From contig JADLKI010000009.1 of NCBI GenBank assembly GCA_015657395.1, positions 145,884-158,427 on the forward strand: a stretch of DNA of 12,544 nucleotides, written 5' to 3'. The notes under the pieces are model-generated. The model made no database searches. It was not told the origin of the DNA and was given only the letters and a program-made list of their open reading frames with translations. This DNA comes from Spirochaetales bacterium. GTDB lineage: Bacteria; Spirochaetota; Spirochaetia; Treponematales; Rectinemataceae. Positions 5,597 through 10,182 of the stretch are shown here, in pieces (within the stretch, counting starts at the first letter, position 1; the number at the start of each line of letters is the position of its first letter). Position numbers and translations under genes: made by a program.

Positions 5597-5652
5597 TCGA
5601 AAATTCCTCTTTCTACCTCTTGCATTCAGATTTCCGACAGCTTAGGTTAAAT

Positions 5653-5674
5653 TATCGGCTTATATCTGCCGATA
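5653..5674. promoter_or_regulatory. Inverted repeat in the divergent lepB / M23 peptidase spacer
   Basis: TATCGGC (5653-5659) and GCCGATA (5668-5674) form a perfect 7-base inverted repeat with an 8-base AT-rich spacer. It ends 11 bases before the M23 start, immediately before its AAAAGG ribosome site. On the minus strand it overlaps a weak -10-like GATAAT (5656-5651). It could be an operator serving both divergent genes or an RNA hairpin in the M23 leader. It has no T tail, so it is not a terminator. Confidence 0.45.
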
Positions 5675-5685
5675 CAAAAGGTGCG

Positions 5686-6969
5686 ATGAACTCACTTTAT
5701 CAGTCGGAAGATGCCGTGCTCGAGGCGGATAAGGTCCTCAACAAACCACTTGTCTCCGTATTGTCGGGCGAAAACCTCATTGTGAAGACGCCTGCAAAGC
5801 CCCACAAAGACCTGAAGGATAAAAAACGTCCCGGTCTTTTCGGAAGAACCCCCCAGGAAAGGAAGAAAAGGAAGCCCTCCAACAAAACAGCTCCGGAACC
5901 CCTCTTCAGCGGCCCGCTCTTCTCGCCGGCCGCCCTTACGTATACATATGAAGAGCCTCCAGAGCTCAGACTCGTTAAGAATAAAACGCCTAAAAATAAA
6001 ACGCCCATCCGTGTCCGCCTGCCGATAAAACCCAGCCGGAAAACTCTGCTGCGCGCGCTCATTGCCACCACGATCATTTTTTCAATAGGCGGCGCGGGCA
6101 TGCTCGTTGCCTCCCTCACCTCGCATTCTTATCCCGTCATTTCTCTGCCCGACGAGGACTCGGCCCAGGAAGCGCTCATGGCCATGCTTGAACCCGAGCC
6201 TTCGGCACCGCCGAGCGGCGATACGGCCCTTCCGCCGCTCCCCTCCCTCCTTGTTGAGAGAACATATACCGTGCGCAGGGGCGACACCCTGCAGACCATA
6301 GCGCGCCAGTTCGGTCTCCGCGAGGACACGATCATTTCGGCGAACAATCTCAGTTCAAAAAACCAGCTTGTGGCCAGCAAAACCCTGAAAGTGCCCAATA
6401 TGAACGGCGTGTACCATACTGTTAAAAGGAACGAAAATCTGTCGGTCATCTCGAGAGCCTATGGTGTAGACATGACGCGCATCGCCGACGCGAACAACAT
6501 TTCCTCATCGACGATTCGGGCGGGAGACCGGCTCTTTATACCCAGTGCGAAACTCAGCGCTTCGGTGCTGCGCGATTTCTACGGCGAAACCTTCATCTGG
6601 CCGGCCCGCGGTCCCATCTCCTCGCCCTTCGGCTACCGCATCAATCCTTTCAGCGGGCAAAGGACATTCCATTCAGCGATCGATATCGTCGTCAATCGCG
6701 GCACCCCCGTCAAAGCCACCCGTGAAGGCAAAGTCGCCGACACAGGCTACAATGCGGTGTTCGGCAACTATGTGATAATCCGGCATGCCGACGGCTATCA
6801 GTCGCTCTACGCCCACCTCGACACGATCCTCACCCGCAAAGGAGCGAGCGTGAACCAGGGAGAAGTGATCGGCCGATCAGGCAACACCGGCCAGAGCACG
6901 GGGCCCCACCTCCACTTTGGCATGTTCCGCAACGGCCAGGCGGTGGATCCGCGGAAATACCTCCAGTGA
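5686..6969 (+). CDS. Membrane-anchored murein endopeptidase with two LysM domains and M23 domain
   Basis: Likely a zinc-dependent peptidoglycan peptidase acting in the periplasm. From the ATG at 5686 it has 427 residues: a basic, proline-rich cytoplasmic segment of about 120 residues, one membrane helix (about 122-145), a short linker rich in acidic residues and proline, LysM1 (about 193-237, TYTVRRGDTLQTIARQFGL), LysM2 (about 242-286, YHTVKRNENLSVISRAYGV), and a C-terminal peptidase_M23 domain (about 314-423). Zinc ligands H329 and D333 (HSAID in place of the usual HxGxD) and H410 (HLHFG, with H408) are present, plus H377 (YAHL), so it should be active rather than an EnvC-like degenerate activator. 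The ATG is preferred over an in-frame TTG at 5620 because AAAAGG lies 4 bases before it. It is divergent from lepB and followed by a terminator-like hairpin. Confidence 0.92.
   Translation: MNSLYQSEDAVLEADKVLNKPLVSVLSGENLIVKTPAKPHKDLKDKKRPGLFGRTPQERKKRKPSNKTAPEPLFSGPLFSPAALTYTYEEPPELRLVKNKTPKNKTPIRVRLPIKPSRKTLLRALIATTIIFSIGGAGMLVASLTSHSYPVISLPDEDSAQEALMAMLEPEPSAPPSGDTALPPLPSLLVERTYTVRRGDTLQTIARQFGLREDTIISANNLSSKNQLVASKTLKVPNMNGVYHTVKRNENLSVISRAYGVDMTRIADANNISSSTIRAGDRLFIPSAKLSASVLRDFYGETFIWPARGPISSPFGYRINPFSGQRTFHSAIDIVVNRGTPVKATREGKVADTGYNAVFGNYVIIRHADGYQSLYAHLDTILTRKGASVNQGEVIGRSGNTGQSTGPHLHFGMFRNGQAVDPRKYLQ
5977..6006 (+). repeat. 15-bp tandem duplication inside the M23 peptidase gene
   Basis: Two adjacent 15-base units (5977-5991 and 5992-6006) agree at 13 of 15 positions. 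They keep the frame and duplicate an NKTP-containing basic pentapeptide (KNKTPKNKTP) in the cytoplasmic segment, just before the membrane helix. It looks like a recent in-frame slippage product in a poorly constrained linker. Confidence 0.7.
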
Positions 6970-6972
6970 GTC

Positions 6973-7016
6973 AAATAAGGCAGTAGGCCGGCGAAGCCAA
7001 GGGCGCTGTCTTATTT
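6973..7016 (+). terminator. Terminator-like hairpin after the M23 peptidase gene
   Basis: AAATAAGGCAG (6973-6983) pairs with CTGTCTTATTT (7006-7016) over 11 bp with one G-U pair. The T-rich run lies at the base of the stem, and GGC/GCC inside the loop can pair further. It begins 3 bases after the TGA. The A-rich and T-rich arms make it plausible as an intrinsic terminator, although the T tail is part of the stem. Confidence 0.6.
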
Positions 7017-7060
7017 TGTAGACATTTCCTCTTTCAAAAATTGTCTTTTATCATACATTC

Positions 7061-7164: not shown

Positions 7165-7180
7165 TGGCACGCGGTTTGCT
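7165..7180 (+). promoter_or_regulatory. Sigma-54 (RpoN) promoter of the alternative sigma factor gene
   Basis: TGGCACG-N4-TTGCT matches the sigma-54 consensus at every defined position, with a T just upstream and the GG (-24) and GC (-12) dinucleotides at the required spacing. The predicted start is about 7190-7191. This leaves a leader of about 26 bases that includes the Shine-Dalgarno GGGAGGA (7205-7211). Orientation and position fit only the gene starting at 7217. Confidence 0.85.
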
Positions 7181-7216
7181 GACTATTCTTTCGAGAACTA
7201 TCTTGGGAGGAATATC

Positions 7217-8038
7217 ATGACCGCCGCCGACAGCGATGAGAGCCTCGAGCTCTATTTTGATTCAATTCGCAAAATCCCTCTTGTGAGCCGACAAGAGGAA
7301 GCAATATTGGCCGGAAAAATCGCAAAGGGGGACAAGGCCGCCCTCAAACGTCTCGTGGAAGGCAATTTGCGCCTCGTGGTCCGCATCGCGAAATCACTGT
7401 GGAGTCCGCCACATTCACTTCTGGACTTGATTCAGGAAGGCAATATCGGACTTGTGAAGGCCGCTGAGCGTTTCGATGCCGGCAAGAATGTCAAATTCGC
7501 AACGTACGCCGTCTGGTGGATCCGCCAGTCCATCTCGCGCTCCCTGGTGAACACGGGCCGCCAGATTCGCCTGCCGCACCGGAAGGAAGACGCGCTGCGG
7601 CGGATCAATGCCATCAAAATGCGCAAGAGCCTCGAAATATCCAGGACTCCTACGGAGGAAGAAGTCGCGCAGGAGATGGGCTGCAGCGAGGCTGAAGTCT
7701 CCGCCATTCTCCATATGGGGGACCAGCCCGTGGCGCTGGAACAGGCCGGCGAAGATGAGCTCTCTGTCCTCGATGTGTACGAAGACTGGCGCTACAACCC
7801 GGAGCGGGAGATCGAAAAATCGAACATCGCATGGCAGAGCTCCTGGCTTCTGTCGACACTTCCCATGCGGGAAAGGGAGGTGGTATCGAGGCGGTTCGGG
7901 CTTGGCAGCGGGCGCGAGCAATCGCTGAAAGCGGTGGGCTCGGTGGTCGGCTGTTCGGCGGAAACCGTGCGGCACATCGAAAAAAAAGCGCTGCAGTCGC
8001 TGTGGCACACGGCAGCGAGGGTGGGTCTGACCGCATAG
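7217..8038 (+). CDS. RNA polymerase sigma factor, sigma-70 family (RpoD/RpoS-like, group 2)
   Basis: A 273-residue alternative sigma factor that should direct core RNA polymerase to a subset of promoters. Region 1.2 is at about 9-40 (SLELYFDSIRKIPLVSRQEE). Region 2 is at about 48-115, with NLRLVVRIAKSL, LLDLIQEGNIGLVKAAERFD and FATYAVWWIRQSISRSL. Region 3 is at about 116-180 (RQIRLPHRKEDALRRI) and region 4 at about 212-265 (LPMREREVVSRRFGL, then the helix-turn-helix around VVGCSAETVRHIEKKAL). Region 1.1 is absent, so it is not the housekeeping factor. Q104 of the -10 reading helix is kept. In the -35 reading helix, two arginines usual in RpoD (TRERIRQIE) are replaced (SAETVRHIE). GGGAGGA lies 5 bases before the ATG. 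Preceded by a sigma-54 promoter and followed by a strong terminator, it forms its own transcription unit. RpoS-like is the best guess; RpoH is less likely because the usual RpoH box is not evident. Confidence 0.92.
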   Translation: MTAADSDESLELYFDSIRKIPLVSRQEEAILAGKIAKGDKAALKRLVEGNLRLVVRIAKSLWSPPHSLLDLIQEGNIGLVKAAERFDAGKNVKFATYAVWWIRQSISRSLVNTGRQIRLPHRKEDALRRINAIKMRKSLEISRTPTEEEVAQEMGCSEAEVSAILHMGDQPVALEQAGEDELSVLDVYEDWRYNPEREIEKSNIAWQSSWLLSTLPMREREVVSRRFGLGSGREQSLKAVGSVVGCSAETVRHIEKKALQSLWHTAARVGLTA

Positions 8039-8044
8039 CACAGG

Positions 8045-8087
8045 GCGGCGCGGTGGTTCCTCCTGACCACTGCGCCGCTCGATTTTT
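8045..8087 (+). terminator. Rho-independent terminator of the sigma factor gene
   Basis: A 13-bp GC-rich stem (8045-8057 with 8066-8078) has one G-U pair and an 8-base loop. It is followed after TCGA by a run of five T residues (8083-8087). It starts 7 bases after the sigma factor stop and isolates that gene from the downstream operon. Confidence 0.9.
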
Positions 8088-8100
8088 ATGCACACTCGCC

Positions 8101-8129
8101 TTGATGAACGCTGCCGTTCAAGGTACCAT
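8101..8129 (+). promoter_or_regulatory. Candidate promoter with internal operator-like dyad for the yibQ-tsaD-M29 unit
   Basis: TTGATG (8101-8106) and TACCAT (8124-8129) are 17 bases apart and each match consensus at four of six bases. A perfect dyad, TGAACG-N4-CGTTCA (8105-8120), lies across the spacer, where a bound repressor would block polymerase. The predicted start falls on or next to the GTG at 8136. The dyad is certain; the promoter is weak and inferred mainly because the preceding terminator requires a new promoter somewhere here. Confidence 0.4.
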
Positions 8130-8135
8130 AGCTCC

Positions 8136-9188
8136 GTGAGAAAAAAACATGGTCATCAGGGCTTTTCGTATGTGCTCATCCTGGCGAGCGCCGCTCTCGC
8201 GGCATTTGCAGCCTTCGCGATAATAAATTCCTGTACGCCCAAAGAATCATCGCAAAAAAACCCAAAAAAGTCCCTATGGCACACCGGAGTATGTGATCGA
8301 ACTCCCCCGGGATATGAGGACCTGAAAGTGATTTCCCCGAATGAAGAGGGAGAGGGGGCTCAGCCGCTTTCAGGCTCTGCGCCTGCCGGTGACTCGCGTG
8401 CAGCTCCCCTGGGAGAAGCCACGGGAGATGCACGACTTGCGCGGCTTCAAGAGCCCCAGAAGGAAGTTCCAAAAGTCACGGGACACCCCGCCCTCATCAT
8501 CGTGATCGACGACGTAGGCTACAGCATCGACGAGCTCAGGCCTTTTCTGAAGCTGCCCTTCCCCATCACCTTCGCGGTGCTTCCGCAGCTTGTCCACAGC
8601 ACCGACTCCGCGCTCGCCATCCGCGATGCGGGCAAAGAGCTCATCCTCCACCAGCCCATGGAGGCACTGGGAGGCAACGATCCTGGCCCGCATGCGGTCT
8701 ATCTTTCGATGGACGAGGCGGCAATTGAAAAAACGGTGGCGGAGAACATCGACAGCCTCCCCTATCCTCCCGTGGGAATGAACAACCATATGGGCTCGGC
8801 CGTGACCCGGGACGAGAGAGCGATGAGACCCATCCTGAAACTTGTCAAAGAGCGTGGCATGTATTATCTTGATTCTCTCACGGCGCCGGGGACCGCAACT
8901 GTGCAGCTGTGCAAGGAACTGGGAACGTCATATATGGAGCGAAATGTGTTTCTCGACAATAATACCGACCGCGAATCGATCCTCGCGGCGATCGACGAGG
9001 GCAAGCGCATAGCGCGGAAAAACAGCGCCGCGGTGATGATCGGCCACGTGTGGTCGTCCAACCTCGCCGCCACTTTGATGGAAATCTATCCGGAGCTGGT
9101 CGAAGAGGGGTATTCGCTCTCGACCATACGAGAATACATGCAGATGCAGGCCGAAGAGAACTCAGGGCATGCGGATTCTGGGAATTGA
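8136..9188 (+). CDS. Divergent polysaccharide deacetylase, YibQ/DUF610 family
   Basis: Envelope protein of the YibQ-like branch of the NodB/polysaccharide deacetylase fold. From GTG 8136 it has 350 residues: a charged N-terminus, one hydrophobic segment (about 10-30) ending IINSC, a low-complexity linker (about 35-115), and the domain (about 118-335). Signature motifs are IIVIDDVGYS (121-130), ITFAVLPQ (144-151), ELILHQPMEA (168-177), VGMNNHMGSAVT (213-224), YYLDS (243-247), ERNVFLDN (268-275) and MIGHVW (301-306). IINSC could act as a loose spirochaetal lipobox at C33, or the segment may be an uncleaved anchor. In enterobacteria yibQ lies next to the murein-hydrolase activator gene envC, and a LysM/M23 gene lies nearby here. 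The start is uncertain: an in-frame ATG at 8088 abuts the terminator T run and has no ribosome site, while AAGG is 12 bases before the GTG. It overlaps tsaD by 20 bases. Confidence 0.88.
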   Translation: MRKKHGHQGFSYVLILASAALAAFAAFAIINSCTPKESSQKNPKKSLWHTGVCDRTPPGYEDLKVISPNEEGEGAQPLSGSAPAGDSRAAPLGEATGDARLARLQEPQKEVPKVTGHPALIIVIDDVGYSIDELRPFLKLPFPITFAVLPQLVHSTDSALAIRDAGKELILHQPMEALGGNDPGPHAVYLSMDEAAIEKTVAENIDSLPYPPVGMNNHMGSAVTRDERAMRPILKLVKERGMYYLDSLTAPGTATVQLCKELGTSYMERNVFLDNNTDRESILAAIDEGKRIARKNSAAVMIGHVWSSNLAATLMEIYPELVEEGYSLSTIREYMQMQAEENSGHADSGN

Positions 9189-10182
9189 GACTTCCTGCGA
9201 TGAGTGTGCGGTCGCCGTTGTCGAAGACGGGCGGCGCATCCTCTCGAATGTCGTCATGACGCAGATCCCCCTCCACGAGCGGTATCAGGGGGTCGTACCG
9301 GAGATAGCCAGCCGCGCCCACATCGAGTGGATCATGGGGGCGGTCAAACGCGCGCTCTCGGACGCAGGGCTCGACGCCGGGTCGATCGACGGCGTCGCGG
9401 CCACGGCCAGGCCGGGCCTCATCGGTTCTCTGGCGGTGGGGCTCTCGTTTGCAAAAGCCCTCGCATGGTCGCGCAATCTGCCCTTCAAGGGCGTAAACCA
9501 CATGCTCGCGCACCTGTATGCGCCGCAGCTCGTAGAGCCTATCGAATATCCGTTTTTGGGGCTCCTCGTGTCGGGGGGCCACACGATCATCTGCCGGGCC
9601 GATGATTTCGACAAAATCACGGTTCTGGGCACGACGATCGACGACGCGGCGGGAGAGGCCTTCGACAAGGTGGCGAAGTCCTACGGCTTCGGCTATCCGG
9701 GCGGACTCGTCATCGACCAGCTCGCGGAAAAGGGGGACGAGCGCGCGTTCAGATTCCCCCTACCCTCGCTGCACAAGGGCGAGCACCGCTACGACGTCTC
9801 CTACTCAGGCTTGAAAACCGCGGTGATCCATCATCTGCCGTCGTATCTGCAGCCCGGCGCCGCGGCCAGTCCGGAGAACATCGCCGCGAGCTTTCGGAAG
9901 ACCGCGATAGAGACCCTTCTCTCGCGCCTGTACAGGGCCGTGCGCGACACCGGCATCCGGACTGTCGTCGCGGGCGGGGGCGTCGCGGCCAATGCCTACC
10001 TGAGGCGCGAACTTGCGAAGAAAGATGAGCTCCGCGTGTATTTTCCGCCCCTGCCGCTGTGCGGCGACAACGGCGCGATGGTCGCCGGCATCGCGTGGCA
10101 CTACTTTGCGCGTGGGGAGACCGACGGCTGGGACATAGCCCCAAGCTCGCGGGTCATGGATTTCAAGCGGCGGCAGGAGTAA
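9169..10182 (+). CDS. tsaD: tRNA N6-adenosine threonylcarbamoyltransferase TsaD
   Basis: TsaD transfers the threonylcarbamoyl group from TC-AMP to A37 of ANN-decoding tRNAs, working with TsaB and TsaE in the cytoplasm. The 337 residues are normal for the family. Motifs of the ASKHA/Kae1 fold are MRILGIETSCDECAVAVV (1-18), GVVPEIASRAH (41-51), ARPGLIGSLAVG (80-91), the metal-binding H111-MLA-H115, VSGGHT (134-139), DDAAGEAFDKVAK (158-170), GGGVAANAYLR (269-279) and CGDNGAMVAG (298-307). D300 supplies the third iron ligand. It begins inside the 3' end of the YibQ-like gene (20-base overlap) and ends 5 bases before the M29 gene, so the three are almost certainly co-transcribed. The other t6A genes are not in the window. 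Confidence 0.97.
   Translation: MRILGIETSCDECAVAVVEDGRRILSNVVMTQIPLHERYQGVVPEIASRAHIEWIMGAVKRALSDAGLDAGSIDGVAATARPGLIGSLAVGLSFAKALAWSRNLPFKGVNHMLAHLYAPQLVEPIEYPFLGLLVSGGHTIICRADDFDKITVLGTTIDDAAGEAFDKVAKSYGFGYPGGLVIDQLAEKGDERAFRFPLPSLHKGEHRYDVSYSGLKTAVIHHLPSYLQPGAAASPENIAASFRKTAIETLLSRLYRAVRDTGIRTVVAGGGVAANAYLRRELAKKDELRVYFPPLPLCGDNGAMVAGIAWHYFARGETDGWDIAPSSRVMDFKRRQE

Follow-up and report, generated by a model that had tools for sequence, protein, structure and literature searches.

A sigma-54 promoter upstream of a probable RpoS orthologue in a Rectinemataceae genome points to an early spirochaetal origin of the RpoN-RpoS circuit

The sigma-70-family gene described here, hereafter designated as sigma A, is best explained as the spirochaetal RpoS, a probable orthologue of Borrelia BB0771 that would be transcribed by the RpoN holoenzyme from a -24/-12 element at positions 7165-7180, with a predicted activator and a predicted regulon of its own, in a circuit inherited from an early spirochaete. 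Based on genomic comparisons, we give this reading a probability of about 0.86. The gene lies in a stretch of 12,544 nucleotides (hereafter, the window), which corresponds to positions 145884-158427 of contig C7 in a genome of 3.03 Mb, distributed over 21 contigs and 91.6% complete. A previous sequence-only reading of this DNA had recognised the logic of the Borrelia RpoN-RpoS cascade. The analysis supports this logic, which is probably older than Borrelia and of which transcription, the identity of the activator and the regulon are predicted components. The comparison proved stronger than had been claimed, since the tree, the neighbouring genes and two protein signatures make sigma A a probable orthologue.

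In the proposed mechanism, a DNA-binding activator would sit on dyads at 7007-7057 and reach the RpoN polymerase, bound at the -24/-12 element from which it would transcribe sigma A, by looping over the intervening AT-rich stretch, thereby opening the promoter. The resulting RpoS would in turn direct polymerase to its own set of promoters. A further sigma factor, sigma B, encoded on contig C4 and likewise preceded by a sigma-54 site, would form a parallel arm, and a Rrp2-like two-component activator encoded on contig C20 is the best single candidate for the input. Such a circuit would have been inherited from an early spirochaete rather than assembled in Borrelia. The features of the locus are collected in Table 1.

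Table 1. Features of the sigma A locus, in window coordinates.
Feature	Position	Strand	Basis
LysM + M23 peptidase gene upstream of sigma A	5620..6969	+	Pfam; neighbour kept in this family (Rectinemataceae, the window's family)
Enhancer-like dyad 1, TGTCT-N8-AGACA	7007..7024		starts 158 bases before the -24 element; family pattern TGTNT-N8-ANACA
Enhancer-like element 2, TGTCTTTTATCATACA	7042..7057		perhaps a degenerate second copy, ~34 bases downstream of dyad 1
Sigma-54 -24/-12 promoter TGGCACGCGGTTTGCT	7165..7180	+	exact match; one of five strict genome sites; kept in 59/59 testable sigma A rows
Predicted transcription start	7191..7193	+	predicted, 12-14 bases after GC
Shine-Dalgarno GGGAGGA	7205..7211	+	5 bases before ATG; GGAG invariant in nine-genome genus alignment
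Sigma A, group-2 sigma-70-family factor, 273 aa, probable Borrelia RpoS orthologue	7217..8038	+	Pfam regions 1.2, 2, 3, 4; trees and tests; synteny
Terminator-like stem after sigma A	8043..8080	+	16 pairs, 11 G-C, then GATTTTTATG
Divergent polysaccharide deacetylase	8088..9188	+	PF04748, E 5.1e-66; tblastn 29-30% identity in L201-L204
tsaD	9169..10182	+	TIGR03723, 389.7 bits (cut-off 296.1); tblastn 54-55% identity in L201-L204

The promoter sequence, TGGCACGCGGTTTGCT, is an exact TGGCACG-N4-TTGCT, in which GG (7166-7167) and GC (7178-7179) stand 10 bases apart, fitting the sigma-54 consensus TGGCACG-N4-TTGCW; the match and the correct -24/-12 spacing had been read in the same way from the sequence alone. 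When the window was scanned with up to two mismatches, two matches were obtained against 1.09 expected, the sole exact one being that at 7165-7180. The ATG of sigma A (7217) is located 36 bases downstream of this element. Transcription from sigma-54 promoters usually starts 12 bases past the GC. In Borrelia, the start of rpoS was mapped 14 bp past the GC doublet (available text of PMC1976401). With a start 12 to 14 bases past the GC, the sigma A transcript would begin at about 7191-7193 and have a leader of 24-26 bases, close to the 26 or so suggested before, and the strong Shine-Dalgarno then announced corresponds to GGGAGGA. Overlapping the predicted start is a near inverted repeat, TTCTTTCGAGAACT, at window positions 7186-7199, which is identical in five of the nine genus members. 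Downstream of the gene, the terminator that had been attributed to it takes the form of a terminator-like stem of 16 pairs, far the longer of two terminator-like sites found in the stretch, where 1.4 were expected.

Part of the expression might have another source. The M23 gene upstream is oriented in the same direction as sigma A, and a sigma-70-like match (9/12) occurs at 7191-7218, so that a sigma-70-type promoter or read-through from M23 could carry much of the expression next to a genuine sigma-54 promoter. However, the sigma-70-like match runs into the start codon of sigma A, and in an alignment of nine genus genomes no stretch upstream of the leader is better conserved than the -24/-12 element. 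We consider this alternative unlikely, and it is partly compatible with RpoN-driven transcription of an RpoS orthologue.

Conservation of the GG/GC dinucleotides in relatives, which had been put forward as a check, was borne out. Fifty-eight genomes were searched with sigma A and the 30 best loci were taken, all of which carry a GG/GC site upstream of the gene. The sigma A set was then composed of 60 rows, comprising these 30 loci together with 14 (of 15 taken) and 16 (of 19 taken) others. With a score of at least 12.5 and obligatory GG and GC in the scan, the -24/-12 site was found in 59/59 rows having upstream DNA (L198 has none), a figure that does not represent 59 independent events because the rows are related. 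For 50 of the 59 rows, a start codon with a Shine-Dalgarno-like stretch, as selected by script, follows 18-38 bases after the end of the site. The sites share C at position 4 (58), A at position 5 (57) and T at position 13 (all 59). In the remainder of the same loci, the background was 0.035 sites per 320 bp, falling to 0.0014 at a score of at least 14. The site upstream of sigma A is not there by chance. Among the control groups, for which the stretches scanned were longer than those of sigma A, it occurred in 2/15 rows of group C, one of them the B-like L302, and in 1/5 RpoD rows. Out of the 202 rows of the total selection (L230 was unused), five were left out of sigma A by tree or signature; the site is present in L208, L228 and L229 and absent from L227 and L280.

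The gene had been announced as coding for an alternative sigma factor, and its product can now be assigned to the group-2 factors, with Pfam regions 1.2, 2, 3 and 4. The closest named relative belongs to Rectinema sp. (80% identity), and relatives of sigma A, where named in databases, are called RpoD/SigA, primary sigma factor or sigma-70 family. These names would suit an ordinary housekeeping, RpoD-like factor having an incidental -24/-12 match. Yet a separate RpoD is encoded on contig C20 (open frame of 586 aa, signature TRERIRQIE), sigma A reached no cut-off among the 25 NCBIfam families listed out of 51, and the frequency of the site contrasts with that in RpoD rows despite the longer stretches scanned for the latter, which makes a housekeeping role very improbable. 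The bit scores of sigma A were 186.5 for TIGR02393 (RpoD_Cterm; cut-off 354), 200.3 for TIGR02394 (RpoS; cut-off 378.7) and 184.5 for the RpoS equivalog NF004207 (cut-off 394).

The relationship to Borrelia RpoS was addressed with trees built on chosen subsets of 103, 64 and 73 rows, which included a single proteobacterial RpoS. Two sigma matches were found in each of four Borrelia-type genomes (1.0-1.5 Mb), and the smaller sigma protein of L202 is 95% identical to a Borrelia recurrentis sigma factor and 90% identical to Borreliella bavariensis RpoS. A branch of the 64-row tree, with a support of 100/97, has 25 sigma A rows and two Borrelia-type rows on one side and separates the latter from RpoD, sigma B and C. 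When the two Borrelia rows were constrained to group with B, with RpoD and C, or with E. coli RpoS alone, p-AU values of 0.016, 0.0035 and 0.014, respectively, were obtained; a topology in which E. coli RpoS joined the sigma A group as a whole was not rejected (p-AU 0.209). The 73-row tree included 21 extra loci, drawn from the 80 loci kept out of 591 in a contig scan, which by title were mostly from other phyla: one Spirochaetia row fell inside and the 20 others outside the sigma A side (100/97), with weak forks adjoining the Borrelia rows. The branch leading to Borrelia RpoS is long, and the tree gives it no firm position among the sigma A rows. In the 103-row tree, group A included L280, which fell among B.

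The genomic context and the protein sequences point in the same direction. The deacetylase and tsaD are synteny markers common to the window and the Borrelia-type rpoS loci, and the order sigma - deacetylase - tsaD was found in all four Borrelia-type loci, in L191, L197, L198 and L199, and in the window. By tblastn, neither marker was found within 1.5 kb downstream of the sigma gene in L193-L196 and L200. Among the 30 loci L023-L052, the deacetylase was matched in 28 and tsaD in 27, and a tblastn match to the LysM/M23 gene was present upstream of sigma A in 29, the remaining one (L029) having only 259 bases there. The family COG0533 is presumably TsaD. Across bacteria, COG0568 sigma genes have been associated with sigma-54 promoters, and COG0533 was reported as enriched in Spirochaetia (accessible part of PMC12316311), a signal that the order sigma A - deacetylase - tsaD would explain; the same part of that paper draws no link between this signal and RpoS. 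Two signatures further characterise the sigma A proteins. The first, P-x-R-K-E in region 3, occurs in 56 of the 60 sigma A rows and in none of the 142 others, and in our own reading its R-K pair corresponds to R121/K122 in the portion of PMC6719511 available to us. The second, [ST]-x-E-[TSA]-[VI]-R in region 4.2, was detected in 58/60 and 1/142 rows; ETVR also occurs in one Melainabacteria row outside the sigma A group. Taken together, the tree, the shared neighbours and these signatures indicate that sigma A is probably an orthologue, beyond a mere analogue, of Borrelia RpoS (BB0771).

Convergence would mean that the promoter is real and that its wiring to a sigma gene arose independently here and in Borrelia. 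The long branch of Borrelia RpoS would allow for it, and sigma-54 sites also precede sigma B genes, which form a separate clade, so that wiring of this kind is common in the phylum. We nevertheless hold independent origins to be quite improbable, given the shared downstream gene order, the tree and AU tests, and the fact that the further lineages sampled in the class that have upstream DNA also carry the site (L191, L194, L197 and L199, genome G177 being among them). As promoter and gene have been kept together in many spirochaetes, inheritance is preferred, and the chain known from a pathogen, the Lyme bacterium, is probably an old spirochaetal circuit. The standing of BB0771 as RpoS has been questioned; it was reported to group with homologues of several proteobacterial classes and was concluded to be a divergent but true RpoS (PMC6719511, in the text available). 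That conclusion and the present reading differ on where RpoS came from.

Compared with gammaproteobacterial RpoS, sigma A has regions 1.2-4 in common. In contrast, the 64-row tree groups E. coli RpoS with RpoD and C (97/83), and the scores of sigma A lie below the RpoS equivalog cut-offs. A joint clade with sigma A was not rejected by the AU test (the value of 0.209 cited above). A LysM/M23 gene lies upstream of sigma A as nlpD does upstream of rpoS in E. coli. This link was set aside as a possible coincidence, the gene being kept in this family and having no tblastn match in the Borrelia-type loci. In the flagellar hierarchies of Vibrio and Pseudomonas, sigma-54 acts ahead of FliA (sigma-28); there too RpoN switches on a second sigma factor, but this is the flagellar sigma-28 and not, as predicted here, a group-2 factor.

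Both rpoN and sigma-54 activators, which the sequence-only reading had proposed to look for, occur in the genome, as one rpoN (E 4.4e-51) and eight PF00158 matches (E 4e-59 or better); in the phylum, 142 of 149 genomes yielded an rpoN. The GAF[T/S]GA loop, which has a role in such activators, is exact in only four of the eight. Two of them are identical copies, and the zero tree distance between L007 (C6:107835) and L008 (C6:119453) may stem from recent gene duplication or from a repeat in the assembly at the contig end. In a quick tree of 21 activators (the eight own ones and 13 of 40 matches from other genomes), the Rrp2 proteins from two Borrelia-type genomes formed a set (SH-aLRT 99) with a single activator from each of four others, namely the genome under study (contig C20), G177, G063 and G039. 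The Rrp2 relative on C20 displays receiver, sigma-54 and Fis-type HTH domains and is directly preceded by a histidine kinase gene, confirmed by a family model. Each Borrelia-type genome searched had one strong activator match, and the Rrp2 relative is the only strong activator type common to the Borrelia-type genomes and the T. pallidum-like G039 among the genomes searched; by elimination, it is thus the best single candidate for the input.

Further upstream, the ATCATACA block precedes sigma A in seven of the nine genus members, as read from their alignment. The pattern TGTNT-N8-ANACA is present in 11 of 28 upstream regions of the family, 117-158 bases before the -24 element, and absent from the other 17; the 0.03 occurrences expected from shuffles flatter the dyad, as the alignment had been inspected before the pattern was set. 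In an unbiased scan of 4-mer dyads, GTAT-N8-ATAC ranked first (9/28 against 0.17), and no dyad exceeded four in 60 shuffles. Upstream of sigma B, another dyad, TGTGT-N9-ACACA, starts 165 bases away in four genus members. Across 50 loci of the genome under study, the dyads were found only at the two sigma genes, with the exception of a single match some 1.4 kb away from another site. The dyads upstream of sigma A and sigma B look like enhancers, and since they differ, different activators may serve the two arms.

In Borrelia, RpoN drives rpoS (PMC1976401), and B. burgdorferi has been described as having appropriated RpoN for this purpose (PMC6719511; both in their accessible parts). The present locus resembles the Rrp2-RpoN-RpoS cascade of B. 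burgdorferi in having an RpoN promoter immediately in front of the sigma gene, itself a probable orthologue (PMC1976401, available text), in the deacetylase and tsaD that are also found downstream in the Borrelia-type loci, and in a Rrp2-type activator behind a histidine kinase, whose action on the sigma A promoter is putative. It differs in the number of strong activator matches, eight as opposed to one per Borrelia-type genome searched, and in a second sigma gene with a sigma-54 site. Enhancer-like dyads are found here, whereas Borrelia Rrp2 worked without an enhancer, and a LysM/M23 gene takes the upstream place that flgI-flgJ occupy in Borrelia (both from the available text of PMC1976401). 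The nearest named relative is Rectinema.

Sigma B, located on contig C4 outside the window, is a second, paralogous sigma-70-family gene whose product is 36% identical to sigma A and belongs to a distinct clade. Neither this gene nor the enhancer-like dyads had been noticed in the sequence-only reading. A perfect strict sigma-54 site stands 24 bases before its ATG, and sigma B relatives carry a site in 51/54 rows of the same order and 30/64 in the rest of the phylum. The two genes have different distributions. In nine Treponema-type genomes (f3), the search with sigma A gave nothing beyond E 3.7e-47, where their other sigma factors also score, and they were thus regarded as being without sigma A, as were two f5 genomes (G033 and G052); sigma B was detected at E <=1e-73 in eight of these nine. 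Conversely, no sigma B match better than 5e-48 was found in the four Borrelia-type genomes, and none at a clear level in G005, G016 and G019, all of which have sigma A. In the T. pallidum-type genome G039 (one contig of 1,139,633 bp), TGGCATGATATTTGCT precedes a sigma gene that is B-like (L302); first taken as group C, this gene is on a long branch of the 103-row tree, where its placement is unsure. Among the proteins listed for the T. pallidum proteome is TP1012, a sigma factor of RNA polymerase (PMC5015957, in the part available), and L302 presumably corresponds to it. Changed or lost sites occur in some Treponema-type genomes, L179 and L180 reading TAGCAT and L185 having none.

It is rather likely that an RpoN circuit with two arms, each with a different group-2 sigma factor under sigma-54 control, already existed in the common ancestor of the class Spirochaetia or in an earlier ancestor within the phylum. 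Borrelia would have kept arm A alone, turning it into a host-adaptation switch, and treponemes would have kept arm B alone, including the reduced T. pallidum-type genome with its sigma-54 site. If so, Borrelia RpoS, whose status is disputed, would be an old spirochaete factor that came down together with its promoter, irrespective of its deeper link to proteobacterial RpoS. An unrecognised RpoN-driven sigma factor is thereby predicted in treponemes. Relatives beyond Borrelia with the same promoter and neighbours make both the appropriation of RpoN and the status of BB0771 testable by comparison, and those that are not pathogens offer models for the circuit. In the literature searched, as accessible mostly without subscription papers, no description was found of an RpoN-driven RpoS across spirochaetes or of a second arm.

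Some features of individual genomes may be mentioned. In G177, the Rrp2 relative (L319, C1:688596) is about 7.6 kb from the sigma B gene (L163, C1:696655). Two Borrelia-type genomes have a broken rpoN match, with stops or a split frame (G128:C1:472400-472828 and G155:C1:475649-476073), for which sequencing errors are possible, and rpoS keeps its sigma-54 site in both (L203 and L204). No rpoN was found in B. turicatae, and that of B. hermsii is intact (PMC3162934, available text).

Within the genome under study, the strict pattern YTGGCACN5TTGCW gave five matches, with none in a reversed control, and two of the five precede sigma-70-family genes, namely sigma A and sigma B. The relaxed pattern TGGCAYN6TGCW had 24 matches against 16 in the reversed control, many of which are thus due to chance. 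Downstream proteins were looked up for six sites of the relaxed scan. Strong sites were found 64-96 bases before frames for Hsp20, an AhpC-type peroxiredoxin, glutamine synthetase III and a periplasmic sugar-binding-type protein, functions that fit stress and nutrient control without proving it. One site (G000:C20:16442-16457, L354) lies 23 bases before a 280-aa open frame without a Pfam match. The perfect site preceding the AhpC-type peroxiredoxin gene (G000:C6:107164-107179, L340) points away from an activator gene whose sigma-54 domain is about 650 bases off, and the site of the Hsp20 gene, 96 bases before it, is also perfect (G000:C17:70500-70515, L353).
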